From IMG/VR virus record IMGVR_UViG_3300025759_000662, positions 1 to 24,671 of that record: 24,671 nt of DNA; one strand, given 5' to 3'. Of this stretch, positions 2,406 through 11,178 are shown one piece after another. The notes beneath the pieces are model-generated. The model searched no databases. It saw only the letters and a list, made by a program, of their open reading frames with translations, and was not told the DNA's origin. The translations under genes were made by a program, and so were the position numbers. The stretch comes from a virus. Position 1 is the first letter of the stretch. The number at the start of each line of letters is the position of its first letter.

Positions 2406-2609
2406 TCAACTATTTGCATTTATTTTTTCAAGTACAACTTTGATCCTTGAGGTTGCCGCCTGCTTCGAAATAGGTAAATCTTTCAACCTAACCCCATTGA
2501 CAAAGTAATCGATCATGGCACGTTTGTTGCTTTCAATCATCCTGGTTTTACTTAGAGCCAGTTCGATTGTCTCGATTGAATACGATCCACAGTGTTCAAG
2601 GTTACTCAT
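2406..2609 (-). CDS. Small helix-turn-helix protein, TrfB/KorA-like
   Basis: A 67-residue protein, last gene of the nucleotide-metabolism operon. Residues about 13-66 follow the layout of TrfB/KorA-type repressors: an N-terminal helix (SIETIELALSKTRM), a second helix (ESNKRAMIDYFVNG), then a helix-turn-helix (LKDLPISKQAATSRIKVVLEKI) in which SKQAATSRIKVVLEK would be the recognition helix. KorA-type proteins repress promoters by binding palindromes. ATG at 2609 overlaps the dCMP deaminase stop by one base (TGATG), with AGGAG about 8 bases upstream. It sits beside the palindrome-flanked promoter at 2353-2400. The family link is by pattern only, so moderate. Confidence 0.6.
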   Translation of the reverse strand: MSNLEHCGSYSIETIELALSKTRMIESNKRAMIDYFVNGVRLKDLPISKQAATSRIKVVLEKINANS

Positions 2610-3019
2610 CAAATATCTCCTATATCACAAAACTCAACAGCTATATTGAAACTTTCCAAAAGGGCAATGGGTTCCATATCCCTGTACCTTTCTCCGTAAA
2701 ACACCCTTTTGATCCCTGCCATAACAAGCATCTTAGCACAAGCCATACACGGACTTAGAGTTACGTAGACATCGCAATCTTTTGTTGCAACGCCGTTTTT
2801 TACACAGAACATAAGCGCGTTTTGTTCTGCATGCATAACTTCATCGATAGTTTGACCGTTGGATTCACAACAGTTATCCCTACCAGGCAATGTGCCGTTG
2901 TAACCGGTGCTAAGGATTCTACCTTCCTTTGCAATCACACAGCCAACCTTATTTCTTTCTGCATAAGATGCCTCGGCCCATAATCTGGCAGTCGCCATTA
3001 GCAATAGGGTCTTATCCAT
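2609..3019 (-). CDS. dCMP deaminase (ComEB-type)
   Basis: A 136-residue protein with the zinc-dependent cytidine/deoxycytidylate deaminase signatures: HAE (His63, Glu65 as proton shuttle) and PCMAC (Cys91, Cys94). A second Cys/His-rich stretch (RDNCCESNG, residues 47-55) is typical of phage dCMP deaminases with an extra zinc. It converts dCMP to dUMP. It overlaps the MazG-like gene by 8 bases and the HTH gene by 1, so all are co-translated. In T-even phages dCMP deaminase works beside a dCTPase and a dCMP hydroxymethylase to balance pyrimidine pools; the same set appears here. Confidence 0.9.
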   Translation of the reverse strand: MDKTLLLMATARLWAEASYAERNKVGCVIAKEGRILSTGYNGTLPGRDNCCESNGQTIDEVMHAEQNALMFCVKNGVATKDCDVYVTLSPCMACAKMLVMAGIKRVFYGERYRDMEPIALLESFNIAVEFCDIGDI

Positions 3020-3392
3020 AAATAATCGTCTCTATTTTTTTCTCTGGTGCGACCCAGTCGTCTGGCTTGGTTGCATCCGTTACACCGTCAAACCCTTCCC
3101 GGCCTTTTTTAATCCCCGGCTTCTTACTCATATTCGCTTCGTGGATTACATTGAATATTCGACGGATTTGAGAAACTTCAAGACCGGATCGGTACAAGCC
3201 TCCAATAGCAAAATAACATAAATCTATCAAAGCATCAGCGTCGTCTACCAGAGAAGTGGATTCTTCAAATTCTTGAATTTCTTCCTTTAAGGCCGCAATC
3301 AACCATGCTCGTTTATCGGCATCCAGTCGTTGTGGAGAACTAATATCCAGCCCTATGACTTCACGGTTAAATGTCCCAATTTCTTTAATCAT
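3012..3392 (-). CDS. MazG-like all-alpha NTP pyrophosphohydrolase
   Basis: A 126-residue, mostly helical protein with the metal-binding acidic pattern of the MazG/dUTPase-2 superfamily: EE..E at residues 37-41 (KEEIQEFEE) and a second helix with DDADALID (50-57). A C-terminal KPDDW..PE segment is frequent in phage members. Such enzymes release pyrophosphate from nucleoside triphosphates; T4 dCTPase/dUTPase is an analogous activity. Substrate cannot be read from sequence, but between a dCMP-type TS homologue and a dCMP deaminase a dCTP or dUTP substrate is likely. ATG at 3392 has AAGGA upstream and overlaps the amidotransferase stop by 8 bases; a start at 3446 would overlap far more. Confidence 0.78.
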   Translation of the reverse strand: MIKEIGTFNREVIGLDISSPQRLDADKRAWLIAALKEEIQEFEESTSLVDDADALIDLCYFAIGGLYRSGLEVSQIRRIFNVIHEANMSKKPGIKKGREGFDGVTDATKPDDWVAPEKKIETIIYG

Positions 3393-4704
3393 TTCTATAT
3401 TCCTTAAAAAGTTTAATGTTCGACTGAGTATTAGATAACAGATCATTCCGAATAGCTTTGGTTTTCAACGGAACTTTGGGTCTATCAATAATCTCTTTGG
3501 GTAACATGTGGCGATAAGCGTCTTTGAGATGCTTCTTATCTATCCGTTCGGCGTAAGGTAGTTCCATGGCGTACTTAACAATATATGGAGCCAAGAAGGG
3601 TGACCTAACCTCAATCGTGTGTCGCATCATTGTTCGGTCCAATCTTGGCAGATGATAATAAGGTAGTTCCTGGAAGACGTCAGACATCTGACTGTCATAT
3701 TCTTTGGCCCTTCTATAACCTCCAAAAAGCTCGTCTGCGCCATCCCCGGTCAGCACCATGTGATAACCTTCTTTGGCGATGGACTTAGCTAAGGCGAGCT
3801 GTGGTTTGACCGAGCCAAGGTCTACAGGTGATTGATGAACAGTAACCGCCTCGCTATCAGTTACCTCATCCAATGTGATATTGGTTCGGTTTGTTGTCAT
3901 CATATCGGCGTAATCGCTTTCATCATTGTCCACATGGAAGACTTTGATCTGATCCCCGTATCCCAACTCTTGAGTGACGGCATAAATGATGGAACTGTCC
4001 AAACCCCCCGATAATAGCAAAGATTGGGGTCGTGCTACGTGCATTCTTTTAGAGGTTGCTTGGGATATACCTGTGGAAATTACGTACGGCGCACTTATTT
4101 TAGACCAATCCCAGTAGCTAGATATGACCCCGTCGATATAAACTGAGCCAGCTGGCATTTGCTTGATATTTTTATAAGGAGTATTACCTGTTGGGTCGTA
4201 TCCCCACTTTTGGATGTTGCTAAAGAAGATAGGGTCGTATTCAGATGGAGCAAGACCCACTAAACAGTCAATCTCCGAGGCTACTACATTTAAGTCTGTA
4301 CGATAATAGAGTGGCTTCTGAGACAAGTAGTCAGTAATGGCAATCAGTTTTTTCTCACGTATAAAAGCCACATTCCAAAAGCCGTCGAACTTATGGAACA
4401 GTTCCAAGATCTTATCCAATGGATTATCGACGATCAAATTCCTGATCATCCTTACGTCGCCTGTCGAAGTGGGATCTAGTTCATGATAGTTAAAAATCTC
4501 ACCTGTGAAAGCTACGAAATTTAATGGTTGATGATATTCATACGGATCAAGAGAACACATTGGTAATGAAACATGACCGACGTGATAATGGCCATTAGTT
4601 TCAAAACATGGTTCAACCGTTCCCCGGTATTGCATTTTATATAGAGCTAATTCGATAGCCCCCGAACTAACCCTTTTATCGTTTGAAGCAATTAGACCAC
4701 ACAT
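3385..4704 (-). CDS. Asparagine synthetase B-like glutamine amidotransferase
   Basis: A 439-residue two-domain protein. Residues 1-200 form a class II glutaminase: catalytic Cys2 (MCGL), YRG at 26-28, FTGEIFNY at 66-73 (NGEIYN in most AsnB) and DYLSQKPLYY at 125-134. Residues about 220-439 form an ATP-dependent synthetase: PP-loop SGGLDSS (232-238), TGDGADELFGGYRR (319-332), RLDRTMMRHTIEVRSPFL and a late RPK. The family adenylates a carboxylate and transfers ammonia from glutamine. It is shorter than E. coli AsnB (about 554 residues) but no key motif is lost. It overlaps the dNMP kinase by 13 bases and the MazG gene by 8. The substrate may be aspartate or, given the neighbours, a modified nucleotide; that is open. 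Confidence 0.85.
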   Translation of the reverse strand: MCGLIASNDKRVSSGAIELALYKMQYRGTVEPCFETNGHYHVGHVSLPMCSLDPYEYHQPLNFVAFTGEIFNYHELDPTSTGDVRMIRNLIVDNPLDKILELFHKFDGFWNVAFIREKKLIAITDYLSQKPLYYRTDLNVVASEIDCLVGLAPSEYDPIFFSNIQKWGYDPTGNTPYKNIKQMPAGSVYIDGVISSYWDWSKISAPYVISTGISQATSKRMHVARPQSLLLSGGLDSSIIYAVTQELGYGDQIKVFHVDNDESDYADMMTTNRTNITLDEVTDSEAVTVHQSPVDLGSVKPQLALAKSIAKEGYHMVLTGDGADELFGGYRRAKEYDSQMSDVFQELPYYHLPRLDRTMMRHTIEVRSPFLAPYIVKYAMELPYAERIDKKHLKDAYRHMLPKEIIDRPKVPLKTKAIRNDLLSNTQSNIKLFKEYRND

Positions 4705-5216
4705 GTAATACCCCGGATGTAATCTAACAACTCTCTGTAAGCGCCTTTATGTTTCCAGTTGTACCGGATATATCCAGTGAACTTCACGGAGTTTGAGCCC
4801 ATGAACCCCTCATACATGTTAATGATTTTAGTATGGTTACGCATCACGGCATCGAGATGATCTTTTGATTTGTGGGCTTTAAATCCAACGTCAACATCCA
4901 TTTTGTTGATACCCGTGGGAGCACAATAAACTACGATCTGCGGTAAGTCCAAATAGTGATTGAACTTATTTAGATTAAGGCGGACCGGTCGATCTAAAGC
5001 CCTAGAGTAAATTAGTTCGGAAATCCACGTGACACGGTCGTGAATATGAAGCTCCTTTCTTTCTGCATGATATTCTTGTTCCTCGGTAACGAAGTCAAAA
5101 ACCTCCTGACTCGGTAACATCGGCGATCGATGCAAAGTTGCTCCAAGATCTTTTTCTAACTGCAAGCTCAATGTGCTTTTGCCTGACCCATCTGGTCCTT
5201 CTAGAACGATGATCAT
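4692..5216 (-). CDS. Deoxynucleoside monophosphate (thymidylate-like) kinase
   Basis: A 174-residue P-loop kinase with Walker A GPDGSGKST at residues 7-15 and a DR motif (HDRVTWISELIYSRAL, about residues 60-75) placed as in thymidylate kinases. The C-terminal part is less typical. It should phosphorylate a deoxynucleoside monophosphate for phage DNA synthesis; by context this could be the modified dCMP made by the upstream enzyme, as T4 gp1 does for hydroxymethyl-dCMP. The start overlaps the upstream stop as TAATG, with a very strong GGAGG 6 bases before it. The kinase assignment is solid; the exact substrate is inferred. Confidence 0.8.
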   Translation of the reverse strand: MIIVLEGPDGSGKSTLSLQLEKDLGATLHRSPMLPSQEVFDFVTEEQEYHAERKELHIHDRVTWISELIYSRALDRPVRLNLNKFNHYLDLPQIVVYCAPTGINKMDVDVGFKAHKSKDHLDAVMRNHTKIINMYEGFMGSNSVKFTGYIRYNWKHKGAYRELLDYIRGITCVV

Positions 5217-5956
5217 TAGTTTCCTCCAGTTAACTTTTTAAGGGTATATTTGTCATTTTCAAAACAGTGGAACGAGGTACAAGAAAAATTCAATGTGCCT
5301 GGGGTCGCATTTATCCCGGCTGCTTCAATTAAAAATAAAGTCATCCTGTTGGCAAAGAAGATGTCATTGTGGAAGTGCCGGATTGCATCGCACGATCGCA
5401 TAGGATAAAAGCAATGCATCTTTTCATTTCTAACTATGAACTGCCAACCTAGTGTACAAGGAACTCTCTCGCCTTCTATAGCAGCATTGAGATCCTCTGG
5501 AAAAAAGATAGGGATATAACACTGTCTTGTCGTTGGGTCCTTTTTTAGAAGAGTAATAGCATCCGAAAGATCGGCAGTATTAAATCTGATCCCATTAGGC
5601 ATTAAGGTTTTAGGCCAAAGACGTTCGGGATAAGAATGCGAAAATTTGTTATCGGTAAGAAAGTCCTCATTACCTTTTAACCAAATTTTATGGCTAGGCG
5701 GGGGATTAACGGGTTCCCCGGCGATACGTTCTTGGAAGTGATCCTCGGCCCACGGTAAAAACGGATTAGTTTCTTTTTTTAAAGAATCGAGGCCATCAGT
5801 CATAGGCATCATTAGGTTTAAGTTCAATATCTCGAGAAACATGGGCGGACACTTGACCCCTTGCCAAGAGTTAGTTTCAACTACATTGCCGTATTTCAAA
5901 AGATGGAATCTAGCTTTATTAATGCCAGATCTTATATCGATGGCTCGAATCTGCAT
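5216..5956 (-). CDS. Thymidylate-synthase homologue with dCMP-type active site (probable dCMP (hydroxy)methylase)
   Basis: A 246-residue member of the thymidylate synthase fold. The C-terminal half carries the family signature: catalytic Cys167 (VPCTLGWQF), then MRSCDA with Arg187, Ser188 and Asp190 at C+20, C+21 and C+23, exactly as in E. coli TS (C146, R166, S167, D169). At C+31, where TS has Asn177 for dUMP selection, this protein has Asp198 (HFHNDIFF). T4 dCMP hydroxymethylase has Asp at the same offset (C148, D179). The His/Tyr site near the end reads FHCFEND, so Tyr is replaced by Phe. ATG at 5956 has AAGGA upstream; the open frame to 6007 runs over the promoter. Methyl versus hydroxymethyl product cannot be told. 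Confidence 0.8.
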   Translation of the reverse strand: MQIRAIDIRSGINKARFHLLKYGNVVETNSWQGVKCPPMFLEILNLNLMMPMTDGLDSLKKETNPFLPWAEDHFQERIAGEPVNPPPSHKIWLKGNEDFLTDNKFSHSYPERLWPKTLMPNGIRFNTADLSDAITLLKKDPTTRQCYIPIFFPEDLNAAIEGERVPCTLGWQFIVRNEKMHCFYPMRSCDAIRHFHNDIFFANRMTLFLIEAAGINATPGTLNFSCTSFHCFENDKYTLKKLTGGN

Positions 5957-5988: not shown

Positions 5989-6017
5989 ATAGTAAGCACT
6001 TAATCAACTAATGTAAA
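5989..6017 (-). promoter_or_regulatory. Leftward sigma70-like promoter for the nucleotide/modification operon
   Basis: On the minus strand: -35 TTTACA (6012-6017), 17-base spacer, -10 TACTAT (5989-5994), 33 bases before the ATG at 5956. The -35 block AAGTGTTTAC is repeated as AAGTGCTTAC 23 bases downstream, running into the -10. This direct repeat spaced two helical turns could be an operator pair. Confidence 0.7.
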
Positions 6018-7660: not shown

Positions 7661-7859
7661 TGATTATACCTACTCCCCGACGTTTACCTGTTTTGCGCCT
7701 TTCCCTCTGTTTTTTTGTTTCATTATGGTGGAAGTCGTCGTTTATTCGAATGGGTAGAACTTCAATTGGGCCATGTTCCTCAATCCATTTTTCTACGTCG
7801 GCTTTCAGTTGTTCTCTAACCTTAGCCTTTTCACCAATTTTGTCTTGCGAGGGTCTCAT
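7644..7859 (-). CDS. Small highly charged protein of unknown function
   Basis: A 71-residue protein. The first half is a predicted charged helix (GEKAKVREQLKADVEKWIEEHGP). A short IEVLPIRIND segment follows, then a very basic stretch (ETKKQRERRKTGKRRG) that could bind nucleic acid. ATG at 7859 overlaps the polymerase stop as ATGA and has AAGGAG upstream, so the gene is almost certainly translated. It sits between the polymerase and VRR-NUC genes, suggesting a replication accessory role. No family recognised. Confidence 0.65.
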   Translation of the reverse strand: MRPSQDKIGEKAKVREQLKADVEKWIEEHGPIEVLPIRINDDFHHNETKKQRERRKTGKRRGVGIIIVKNT

Positions 7860-9589
7860 GATAAAATACTCCTTGCTTCTTTAATGTACCTGTCGTAATC
7901 AATGTTGTTCGGTGTGGCGTCGGGTAAACTCATAAGCGGGGTCGACCCGTCGCTAGTAGGCACTTTATTACCATTGCTACTATAAACGATTTTCTCCCCG
8001 TCGGTTGACCAATAAAATCTAACCACTTTACCGAGTTTCTCACCCTTCCATTCTGCTCCACCTTTTACAGTGCGAACTGTTAGAAATTCTCGTATGTCCC
8101 CACACTCACGTATTGTTTTTTCCACTGGCGTACCGTCGGACAGCCTTTTAACAACCGCATCGTAAATGATGGGTGTAGCAGGATTCTTGGTTAATCCCGG
8201 TCTGGCAAAGACCCCCTTTGTCTTAACACTCCCGTCCGGTTTTATTGCTACATAGTTGTTGACGTCCCTACAGTGTAAAGACTTATAGGGGGTGTGTTCA
8301 AGTTCAAAGCTCGTTGTTTTTTCCCATTGTTCCAAAAGGTGTTCGTAGCCTGGATCGTGAACAACGCCATCGGTATTAGCCGAATAAACTCTACAACCAG
8401 CTTTTTCCAAGGATTCGATAAGCATTAGCAAGGCAAGCTGACCCGTTAAAGTTACTTCCAACATCCCCGCAGGGTGATACATGCATGACCAACGGTTGGA
8501 CAATTTACCAAAGGAGCTGTTAATTATGAGTTTTAGCGAATTGGATCGCATCTTTTCACCGGCTTTTTTAGCCAAGATTCTTTGATTAAAAACCGACGTA
8601 AAAAATGGTAAAAAGTTACGTCCAAGACTCGGGGGAGATATGTCGTTATTGATCATGATCGAGGGATAATAACTAACCACGTCGCTGTCAACAACGTTTT
8701 CGACATGTAGTTCTTTTTCTTGGGAATGAAGCCCGCCGAGGCCACATTTATAAGTTGTTTGACCTATCTCAAAAGGCTTTATTAACTTGGTTGGCAGTTT
8801 TACATAGCCGCTTTTATCCACAGTGAACCTATGTTTATTAACGAAATCCAGAATCTCGTTAAGATGAGACGAATCAAACTTGATGTAGTCCGGGGCAGTG
8901 TAACCAACGTTCCTAGGCGGCGTATCCTTATTTGCCTTGACTTTCAATTTACTTTGAACGATCGCCTCGGCTATTTGTGCACCACCTTTTGATCGCAGAT
9001 CTAATCCGTATTCTGCAGACATGTATTTCCGTAGCTCCATATCTTCGAGCAACTGGTTATACAAATCAATAGTTGTATCCAGATCGTTTTCACAATACTC
9101 CGAAACGTGATCCATTTGCTCGTCAGTTAATTCTATGCTTGGATCGTATGGAAGATCTTGCAGTTTTTTGGAATGGAGTCTACCGCCGTAAAGTTTCAAG
9201 GAAGTAAAAACGCCCGGGGCAACTTGCATCAAATCGAAGGTATTAAAGCGCGGATCTAATTGTAAATCCAGCTTTTTTAATGCTTGCCATTGATGCAGAT
9301 CACTTTTAACGATCCGATCTGACAAAGCTTTTAATTTTTCACAATTAAGGCCTTCCAAAGCAGCCAAGATCATTGGGATGTCATACCCGTTGCTGTTATA
9401 GCCAAAAGTGGTCCGCGTGCACATCGCCGTACGTAGTTTCTTTTGTTGTTCTAAGGTTAACCCCTTGGAAGATTCACGTACGTCGACCTTTAACAGCTTG
9501 TTATTAGCGGGATTCTTAAAAGCAACAAGGAAGTAATTGGGATAACACTCTACATCGAAGACTACTGGGTGGGGGTTGCGATCTTTCAT
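7856..9589 (-). CDS. Family B DNA polymerase with 3'-5' exonuclease
   Basis: A 577-residue polymerase. Exonuclease motifs: FDVE (Asp12, Glu14), FGYNSNGYD (62-70) and YCEND (165-169). Polymerase motifs: A, DVVSYYPS (303-310); B, KLIINSSFG (353-361); C, SANTDGVV (403-410). Motif C has Asn in place of the first Asp of the usual DTD; the second, catalytic Asp is kept. At under 600 residues it is a compact phage form without an obvious protein-primed TPR insertion. ATG at 9589 has GAAGGA upstream and is preferred to TTG at 9613, which lies inside the terminator that precedes the gene. It should replicate the phage genome with the PrimPol at 12845. Confidence 0.9.
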   Translation of the reverse strand: MKDRNPHPVVFDVECYPNYFLVAFKNPANNKLLKVDVRESSKGLTLEQQKKLRTAMCTRTTFGYNSNGYDIPMILAALEGLNCEKLKALSDRIVKSDLHQWQALKKLDLQLDPRFNTFDLMQVAPGVFTSLKLYGGRLHSKKLQDLPYDPSIELTDEQMDHVSEYCENDLDTTIDLYNQLLEDMELRKYMSAEYGLDLRSKGGAQIAEAIVQSKLKVKANKDTPPRNVGYTAPDYIKFDSSHLNEILDFVNKHRFTVDKSGYVKLPTKLIKPFEIGQTTYKCGLGGLHSQEKELHVENVVDSDVVSYYPSIMINNDISPPSLGRNFLPFFTSVFNQRILAKKAGEKMRSNSLKLIINSSFGKLSNRWSCMYHPAGMLEVTLTGQLALLMLIESLEKAGCRVYSANTDGVVHDPGYEHLLEQWEKTTSFELEHTPYKSLHCRDVNNYVAIKPDGSVKTKGVFARPGLTKNPATPIIYDAVVKRLSDGTPVEKTIRECGDIREFLTVRTVKGGAEWKGEKLGKVVRFYWSTDGEKIVYSSNGNKVPTSDGSTPLMSLPDATPNNIDYDRYIKEARSILS

Positions 9590-9610
9590 TTTTATCCTTC
9601 TATTTTGTGA

Positions 9611-9650
9611 CAAAAAAGGCAGTAACCCTTTTCGGGAATACTGCCTTTAT
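9611..9650. terminator. Strong rho-independent terminator between ssDNA-binding and polymerase genes
   Basis: AAAGGCAGTA (9615-9624) pairs perfectly with TACTGCCTTT (9639-9648). The 14-base loop can itself form CCC-GAAA-GGG. Read leftward the stem is followed by a T run, so it should end transcripts leaving the ssDNA-binding protein gene. Read rightward the T run is short. Confidence 0.8.
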
Positions 9651-10248: not shown

Positions 10249-11178
10249 TTATTTAATCTTTTTAAAAATAATTACAATTTGTTCCATAGGAGGTCGTACA
10301 TTGTACTTGTCCTCGTAAGTATTCATAGCCAATGAGCCAGGATAGTGGGGTAGAACCAAGGTTCCTTGTAATTCCATATTGTTATTTAAAAGATCGGCTA
10401 ACATCCTGTGAAGTTCCCAAACTTTTTTGCTTTTAATCATATCCTTAATAACAAAAACAGCATGGCCTCCTACTACCAACTTGTCACAAGATTTATCCTG
10501 GATTAACTTCATTAAATCCCAATAAGTCCTGGTTGACTTCATTTTTCCGGCATTTCCTTCCTTTTTATAAAAAGACTTTTTACCAATGGAACTAGTTTCG
10601 TCCCCCCCATCTGGATAAGGGTTAGAGAAATTTACAAGATGAACACTTTCATCTTGAATACTATCCAAATGAATCGAACTATCCCCTTCATACAATTGCC
10701 ACTTATCCCCTTCACCGTCAGGAGAGATTGACTTAAATGTCTCAAGAGTCAATTTATGGAATTCATATTCGATCCCAATCGTTTTACGATTATTGAACAT
10801 TGCTTCTGCCCCTGTTGTTCCCGATCCTGCAAAAGGATCAAGGACGGTATCCCCTTCTTTTGTTAAATTAAGGATAGCCCAACGTATAGCGTGTAAAGGG
10901 GTTTTAGCAATGTGACCGCCTTTTGAAGTCCCTGACGGAGGATAATACTTATTCCTAACATTCTTATTTGGTAAAGACCCGTCCTTATTTAAAATCGTTC
11001 CCTTAAAATTATCCTTGGACAGATACTTAGAATCGAGATCATAAGTTTCATGAAATCGAGGGGGATAATCAGGAGAAACAAGCAACTCTTGACCCATTTC
11101 GTTAATTTTGATATGTTTTACGGAACTTATTTTTTGGATTTTTTCCCAGTTTGTTTCATAATCTTTCTTAAAGCTCAT
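10249..11178 (-). CDS. AdoMet-dependent DNA methyltransferase with unusual motif IV
   Basis: A 309-residue protein with a clear class I AdoMet-binding motif, LDPFAGSGTTGAEA (residues 113-126), preceded by KTPLHAIRWAILNLTKEGDTV, the usual lead-in of N4/N6 amino-methyltransferases. The expected catalytic (D/N/S)PP(Y/F/W) motif appears as SNPYPD (185-190), where the first Pro is missing or shifted. The target base is therefore uncertain, and the enzyme could be altered in activity. It overlaps the DUF2800 gene by 11 bases. It may protect phage DNA from host restriction, or modify a noncanonical base given the TS-like operon nearby; only the methyltransferase fold is firm. Confidence 0.8.
   Translation of the reverse strand: MSFKKDYETNWEKIQKISSVKHIKINEMGQELLVSPDYPPRFHETYDLDSKYLSKDNFKGTILNKDGSLPNKNVRNKYYPPSGTSKGGHIAKTPLHAIRWAILNLTKEGDTVLDPFAGSGTTGAEAMFNNRKTIGIEYEFHKLTLETFKSISPDGEGDKWQLYEGDSSIHLDSIQDESVHLVNFSNPYPDGGDETSSIGKKSFYKKEGNAGKMKSTRTYWDLMKLIQDKSCDKLVVGGHAVFVIKDMIKSKKVWELHRMLADLLNNNMELQGTLVLPHYPGSLAMNTYEDKYNVRPPMEQIVIIFKKIK

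Follow-up and report, generated by a model that had tools for sequence, protein, structure and literature searches.

A gene cassette that is widespread among uncultured phages probably serves to hypermodify cytosine, and would represent a second route to such DNA that is based on a thymidylate synthase (TS) homologue and brings its own AsnB-type ligase. We base this reading on gene content, linkage and conserved active-site residues, which are observed directly, and on folds taken from predicted models. The window, that is, the whole stretch of DNA that we analysed, comprises positions 1 to 24,671 (24,671 nt) of the uncultured virus record IMGVR_UViG_3300025759_000662. It carries the six genes of the cassette on its minus strand at 2406-5956, which are listed here with two associated features:

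5216..5956, minus strand: TS homologue, predicted to modify dCMP at C5 (hydroxymethylase- or hydroxylase-type); PF00303 (Thymidylat_synt), 7e-8.
4692..5216, minus strand: dNMP kinase-like protein; phrog_761 (thymidylate kinase), 9e-13.
3385..4704, minus strand: AsnB-like ligase with an Ntn amidotransferase domain and a PP-loop synthetase domain; PF00733 (Asn_synthase), 3e-33, and GATase_7, 4e-7.
3012..3392, minus strand: MazG-type nucleotide pyrophosphohydrolase, predicted to remove dCTP; PF01503 (PRA-PH), 3e-7, and phrog_18404, 4e-20.
2609..3019, minus strand: dCMP deaminase; PF00383 (dCMP_cyt_deam_1), 2e-23, and phrog_174, 8e-48.
2406..2612, minus strand: small HTH protein, perhaps a regulator, with a TTG start; phrog_10566, weak at 0.003.
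10249..11178, minus strand: variant amino-methyltransferase with the motif SNPYP, an optional accessory of the cassette; PF01555, 5e-17.
5989..6017, minus strand: candidate cassette promoter, TTTACA-17-TACTAT, placed just upstream of TS by consensus match alone (9/12).

Read from TS to the HTH gene, adjacent genes overlap by 1, 13, 8, 8 and 4 nt, and the TS gene starts with an ATG at 5956 that has a good ribosome-binding site. A kinase homologue also adjoins TS in the loci L049, L066, L030 and L264, and in L049 an HTH homologue holds the same position; as the gene arrangement recurs in unrelated phages, it is not due to chance. The preliminary description had proposed six overlapping genes under one promoter. 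The first half of this proposal is borne out by the open reading frames, their family matches and the 1-13 nt overlaps, whereas promoter-like sites in the region are no more frequent than chance (16 compared to 24.1 in shuffled sequences), which leaves a single promoter for all six genes a plausible candidate. The helicase, nuclease and polymerase genes upstream lie on the same strand as the cassette. The DNA polymerase (window 7856-9613) is family B-like by its motifs YYPS and NTDG, with a very weak Pfam match (0.059).

The TS homologue keeps the catalytic Cys and has Asp at the position of E. coli ThyA Asn177, both invariant in the TS alignment (residue positions in TS and AsnB were mapped via alignments). 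When T4 gp42 is aligned with the window TS and E. coli ThyA it shows the same Asp at position 177, and in the MetaGPA study a change from Asn to Asp at this position marks cytosine-modified phage contigs (PMC8670742). The window protein falls outside the curated ThyA family, scoring 20.1 bits compared to the cut-off of 108.35 bits for TIGR03284 and having Asp rather than Asn at 177. Judged by these residues, dCMP is a well-supported candidate for the substrate. The closest solved relatives by fold and profile are the CMP hydroxymethylase MilA and the phage dCMP hydroxylase AfhB, both at a low identity of 15-19%; the predicted TS model (pLDDT 80) is closest to MilA and then to AfhB, while the sequence profile slightly prefers AfhB, on which our literature search found no paper. 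The product would most likely be 5-hydroxymethyl-dCMP, and an AfhB-type flavin hydroxylation, giving a 5-hydroxyl group, is also a candidate. ThyX is found in 9 of 15 records, and one also has a canonical Asn-type ThyA, so those phages can make dTMP without the cassette TS.

A TS with the dCMP-selecting Asp, a kinase, a dCTPase-type hydrolase and a dCMP deaminase together resemble gp42, gp1, gp56 and Cd of T4, and the gene matches and the Asp thus uphold the earlier suggestion of a T4-like set that destroys dCTP and makes a modified dCMP. Unlike the T4 set, the cassette includes an AsnB-like ligase, and no glucosyltransferase was identified among its genes. A second point of comparison is the 5hmC carbamoyltransferase reported by MetaGPA, a hypermodifying enzyme with a carbamoyltransferase domain (PMC8670742). 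The phages that carry it share with ours the combination of an Asp177-type TS homologue, a dCMP deaminase and a hypermodifying enzyme (PMC8670742), but the class of that enzyme is a different one. Carbamoyltransferase domain proteins (L336-L339, from records G001, G014, G004 and G003) occur in only 4 of the 15 AsnB-cassette records and lie far from the cassette. They are candidates for acting on 5hmC and are compatible with its presence in those phages, although they could serve another purpose.

The AsnB-like gene is closely linked to the TS homologue. Its relatives come from viral contigs (36-61% identity) and from two metagenome-assembled genomes (38-41%); removal of duplicates left 77 distinct relatives, all chosen by similarity to the query. 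A TS homologue was found in all 69 AsnB-like loci with room for one and a dCMP deaminase in all 74 with room, both mostly directly adjacent, and the two contigs from metagenome-assembled genomes have the same gene set in changed order. At the loci of 78 cellular AsnB-like genes this TS was never found. When the search was reversed and started from TS, an AsnB-like gene was present in 72 of 80 loci. In five of the remaining eight (L260, L263, L304, L311 and L320) the contig stops within about 0.65 kb past TS, in L304 within the apparent start of an AsnB gene; the other three (L264, L265 and L316) have room and lack AsnB near TS, an absence that is tentative because the records are mostly fragments. 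Searching with PF00733 gave no match in the L264 and L316 records and a short PP-loop match only in that of L265. More distant TS homologues in isolates also occur without AsnB. The co-occurrence of AsnB-like genes with Asp-type TS homologues, which had been put forward as a check on the original idea, is therefore supported, and the complete forward linkage set against the AsnB-less TS loci indicates that the AsnB-like gene depends on TS and not the reverse. The trees of TS, AsnB and deaminase are correlated (r 0.84-0.90), a measure that cannot part co-function from shared descent. We found no report of a TS-AsnB pairing in the literature and no cultured phage with the cassette among 50,697 phage records. 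A T4-like phage represented by L264:5711-7850 and L329 combines TS, kinase, dCMP deaminase and a C5-methyltransferase, and AsnB was not found in it; elsewhere on the contig of L265 there are two QueC-like PP-loop frames.

Most of the AsnB-like relatives belong to T4-like phages with UvsX, gp41 and gp43 as neighbours (names read from the sequences). We compared the window and three further contigs from its lineage with four large T4-like ones (115-157 kb) and found TS (about 50-57% identity), AsnB (45-52%), MazG and dCMP deaminase common to both, the other matches being one methyltransferase pair and weak matches in tail and polymerase genes. As these unrelated lineages share essentially only the four genes, we regard the set as a mobile functional cassette. 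The amino-methyltransferase was considered as an essential part of it and rejected, as 25 of 57 loci have a homologue upstream of TS, in most cases at a distance of 0-390 nt. In the window protein SNPYP replaces the canonical DPPY-type motif IV, and relatives have GTPYP or GSPYP. Single loci show further variation: an S-adenosylhomocysteine hydrolase gene is inserted between TS and AsnB at L116:2079-3350, and Streptomyces phage KimJongPhill has a comparable MazG-TS-dCMP deaminase cluster that contains no AsnB and in which MazG is separated from the Asp-type TS homologue by gp77 (L325:4871-5932), a protein of unknown family.

The predicted model of the AsnB-like protein (pLDDT 81) has E. coli AsnB (1ct9) as its best match and GMP synthetases as weak matches. 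The ATP-PP loop SGGxDS (SGGLDS in the window) and the catalytic Lys449 are kept in 70 of 70 viral members, which from the residues makes an ATP-dependent ligation likely. The glutaminase domain retains Cys1, Gly75, Glu76 and Asp98; 88 of 91 AsnB-like proteins have lost Asn74, which is replaced by Thr in the window protein, and most have lost Arg49, usually to Ser or Ala, and the complete site (Cys1, Arg49, Asn74, Gly75, Asp98) was not found. To our knowledge, all class II glutamine amidotransferases have that Asn in the oxyanion hole, and its loss suggests either a possible defect in glutamine hydrolysis or a change of donor. The earlier proposal that the nitrogen comes from glutamine is weakened by the loss of the two residues, although Cys1 and the ATP site are intact. 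Asn74 is kept only in L120, L261 and L284, which together with L119 lie near the base of the AsnB-like clade in a quick tree, and this basal placement hints at the order in which the residue was lost. A change from Glu348 to Asp in the synthetase motif was dropped as a marker of the group; the cellular sample had been fetched by the pattern TGDGADE and was therefore biased.

In the pathway that we propose, the substrates, the order of steps, the donor and the product are what we infer. The TS homologue would convert dCMP into a C5-substituted dCMP, MazG would deplete dCTP, the dCMP deaminase would supply the dTTP branch and the kinase would phosphorylate the modified nucleotide on its way to a triphosphate that can be incorporated. 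With ATP, the AsnB-like ligase may then adenylate either the modified base itself or a small carboxylate destined for attachment to it, and would form a C-N bond by which the C5 substituent gains an amide or amine; its target may be the nucleotide or, as for CmoY, DNA that is already synthesised. Given the altered glutaminase site, glutamine is just one possible donor, the alternatives being free ammonia, an amino acid or another amide, and the loss of Asn74 and Arg49 argues against a simple glutamine-dependent amidation. AsnB enzymes classically adenylate carboxylates, and the relatives share no carboxylate-making gene. This is the weak point of our reading as regards the acceptor, and it leaves three candidate modes of action: the ligase may adenylate the hydroxymethyl group, acylate the base or use a host-made intermediate. 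It is possible, and we suggest this only tentatively, that nothing beyond TS and the rebuilt AsnB-type ligase is required for a new C5-substituted cytosine that bears nitrogen, such as 5-aminomethylcytosine or an amide-linked derivative, with a donor other than glutamine at the Ntn domain; such a ligase-based pathway would have arisen independently of CmoY and passed between unrelated phages as a cassette.

If the proposed pathway is true, phages would have a new means to disguise their DNA, via a nitrogen-containing group on an altered cytosine. The cassette suggests that the asparagine-synthetase fold was recruited for phage DNA modification a second time and independently, here in combination with nucleotide chemistry of the TS type. 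It would provide a modified nucleotide that is likely to be new, a way past restriction enzymes and a candidate DNA-labelling enzyme, and its minimal set comprises so few genes that it could be rebuilt in a laboratory strain.

The operon could instead make only 5hmC (or 5-hydroxycytosine) as T4 does, with the AsnB-like enzyme aminating some other nucleotide or metabolite, for example at a carbonyl in the manner of GMP synthetase. PP-loop enzymes can adenylate nucleotide carbonyls, and this alternative would fit both the weak structural matches to GMP synthetases and a TS profile that is closest by sequence to the AfhB hydroxylase; we nevertheless consider it unlikely, as the one-way dependence of AsnB on TS across unrelated phages suggests that the ligase acts on the TS product. 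It is less probable still that the AsnB-like gene encodes a genuine asparagine synthetase and, as an auxiliary metabolic gene that stands among nucleotide genes by habit, provides asparagine for phage protein synthesis: the structural match to E. coli AsnB and the Pfam and NCBIfam names (asparagine synthase) point that way, but the protein misses the curated cut-offs (154.0 compared to 267.1 bits for TIGR01536, and 110 compared to 499 for PRK09431), the AsnB-like proteins form one clade of their own (support 100 in the quick tree) whose pocket has invariant residues of its own, for example His in place of the E. coli AsnB Asp at position 384, and on contigs with enough room the gene is always accompanied by the TS homologue.

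Cytosine hypermodification by the cassette has a precedent in Synechococcus phage S-B43, where CmoA, CmoX and CmoY make 5-carboxymethylcytosine and an AsnB-fold ligase joins glycine to it in DNA; the same study describes a second ligase cluster that carries a glutaminase domain (PMC12783734). By analogy, this precedent supports our reading, since cytosine in phage DNA is there the target of a ligase with this fold (PMC12783734). The preliminary description had called the pathway an undescribed branch of DNA hypermodification, which holds in part, as an AsnB-fold ligase acting on phage cytosine was published in 2025 as CmoY, in a different pathway based on CmoA and CmoX (PMC12783734). Like the CmoA-CmoX-CmoY system, the cassette encodes an AsnB-fold, probably AMP-forming ligase (here a predicted fold) beside a putative cytosine C5-modifying enzyme; unlike it, the cassette is without CmoA and CmoX and would use a TS homologue on dCMP instead. 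The ligases also differ, in that the cassette enzymes form a separate clade whose profile does not match SpCmoY, a protein of 271 aa without the amidotransferase domain that the cassette ligase has.

Several possible sources of a carboxylate were considered, namely CmoA, a C5-methyltransferase, TET/JBP and a 2OG-Fe(II) oxygenase, and none proved general among the relatives. CmoA was found in none of 14 viral records and none of 5 further ones, in a search that recovered its positive control, Streptomyces phage TurkishDelight. The 14 viral records likewise contain no C5-methyltransferase (PF00145) and so no Arg at SpCmoX position 350, and a TET/JBP search gave no match, its control being silent as well. 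A 2OG-Fe(II) oxygenase-like gene lies between AsnB and dCMP deaminase at L251:7077-7679, in this locus only. The four basal members have variant C5-methyltransferases near TS-AsnB (L120:4566-5816, L119:7373-8791, L261:2930-4087 and L284:3058-4203), in which motif IV keeps its Cys but has the form DCG/ECG, DN/DD takes the place of the ENV motif and a Lys corresponds to SpCmoX Arg350. Engineered M.MpeI uses Cx-SAM after the same change to Lys at this site (PMC12783734). These enzymes, and the Asn74 kept in three of the four loci, would suit a route via 5-carboxymethylcytosine like that of CmoA-CmoX-CmoY, with host-supplied Cx-SAM and an unrecognised transferase, which is nonetheless highly improbable for the cassette because no such methyltransferase is present in the window or in the T4-like members, CmoA is present in none, and a C5 already substituted by TS cannot be carboxymethylated too.

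In TurkishDelight itself, gp123-125 (L199:12917-16345) are annotated as methyltransferase, glutamine amidotransferase and methyltransferase, and resemble, respectively, CmoX with Arg at 350, a ligase of the CmoY type whose glutaminase residues are intact, and CmoA; as a set they agree with the arrangement of the published ligase cluster that carries a glutaminase domain. The CmoA-like gene matches TIGR00740 at 3e-25, below the cut-off, and Gordonia phage Evaa has a CmoA-like gene that is 51% identical to it.
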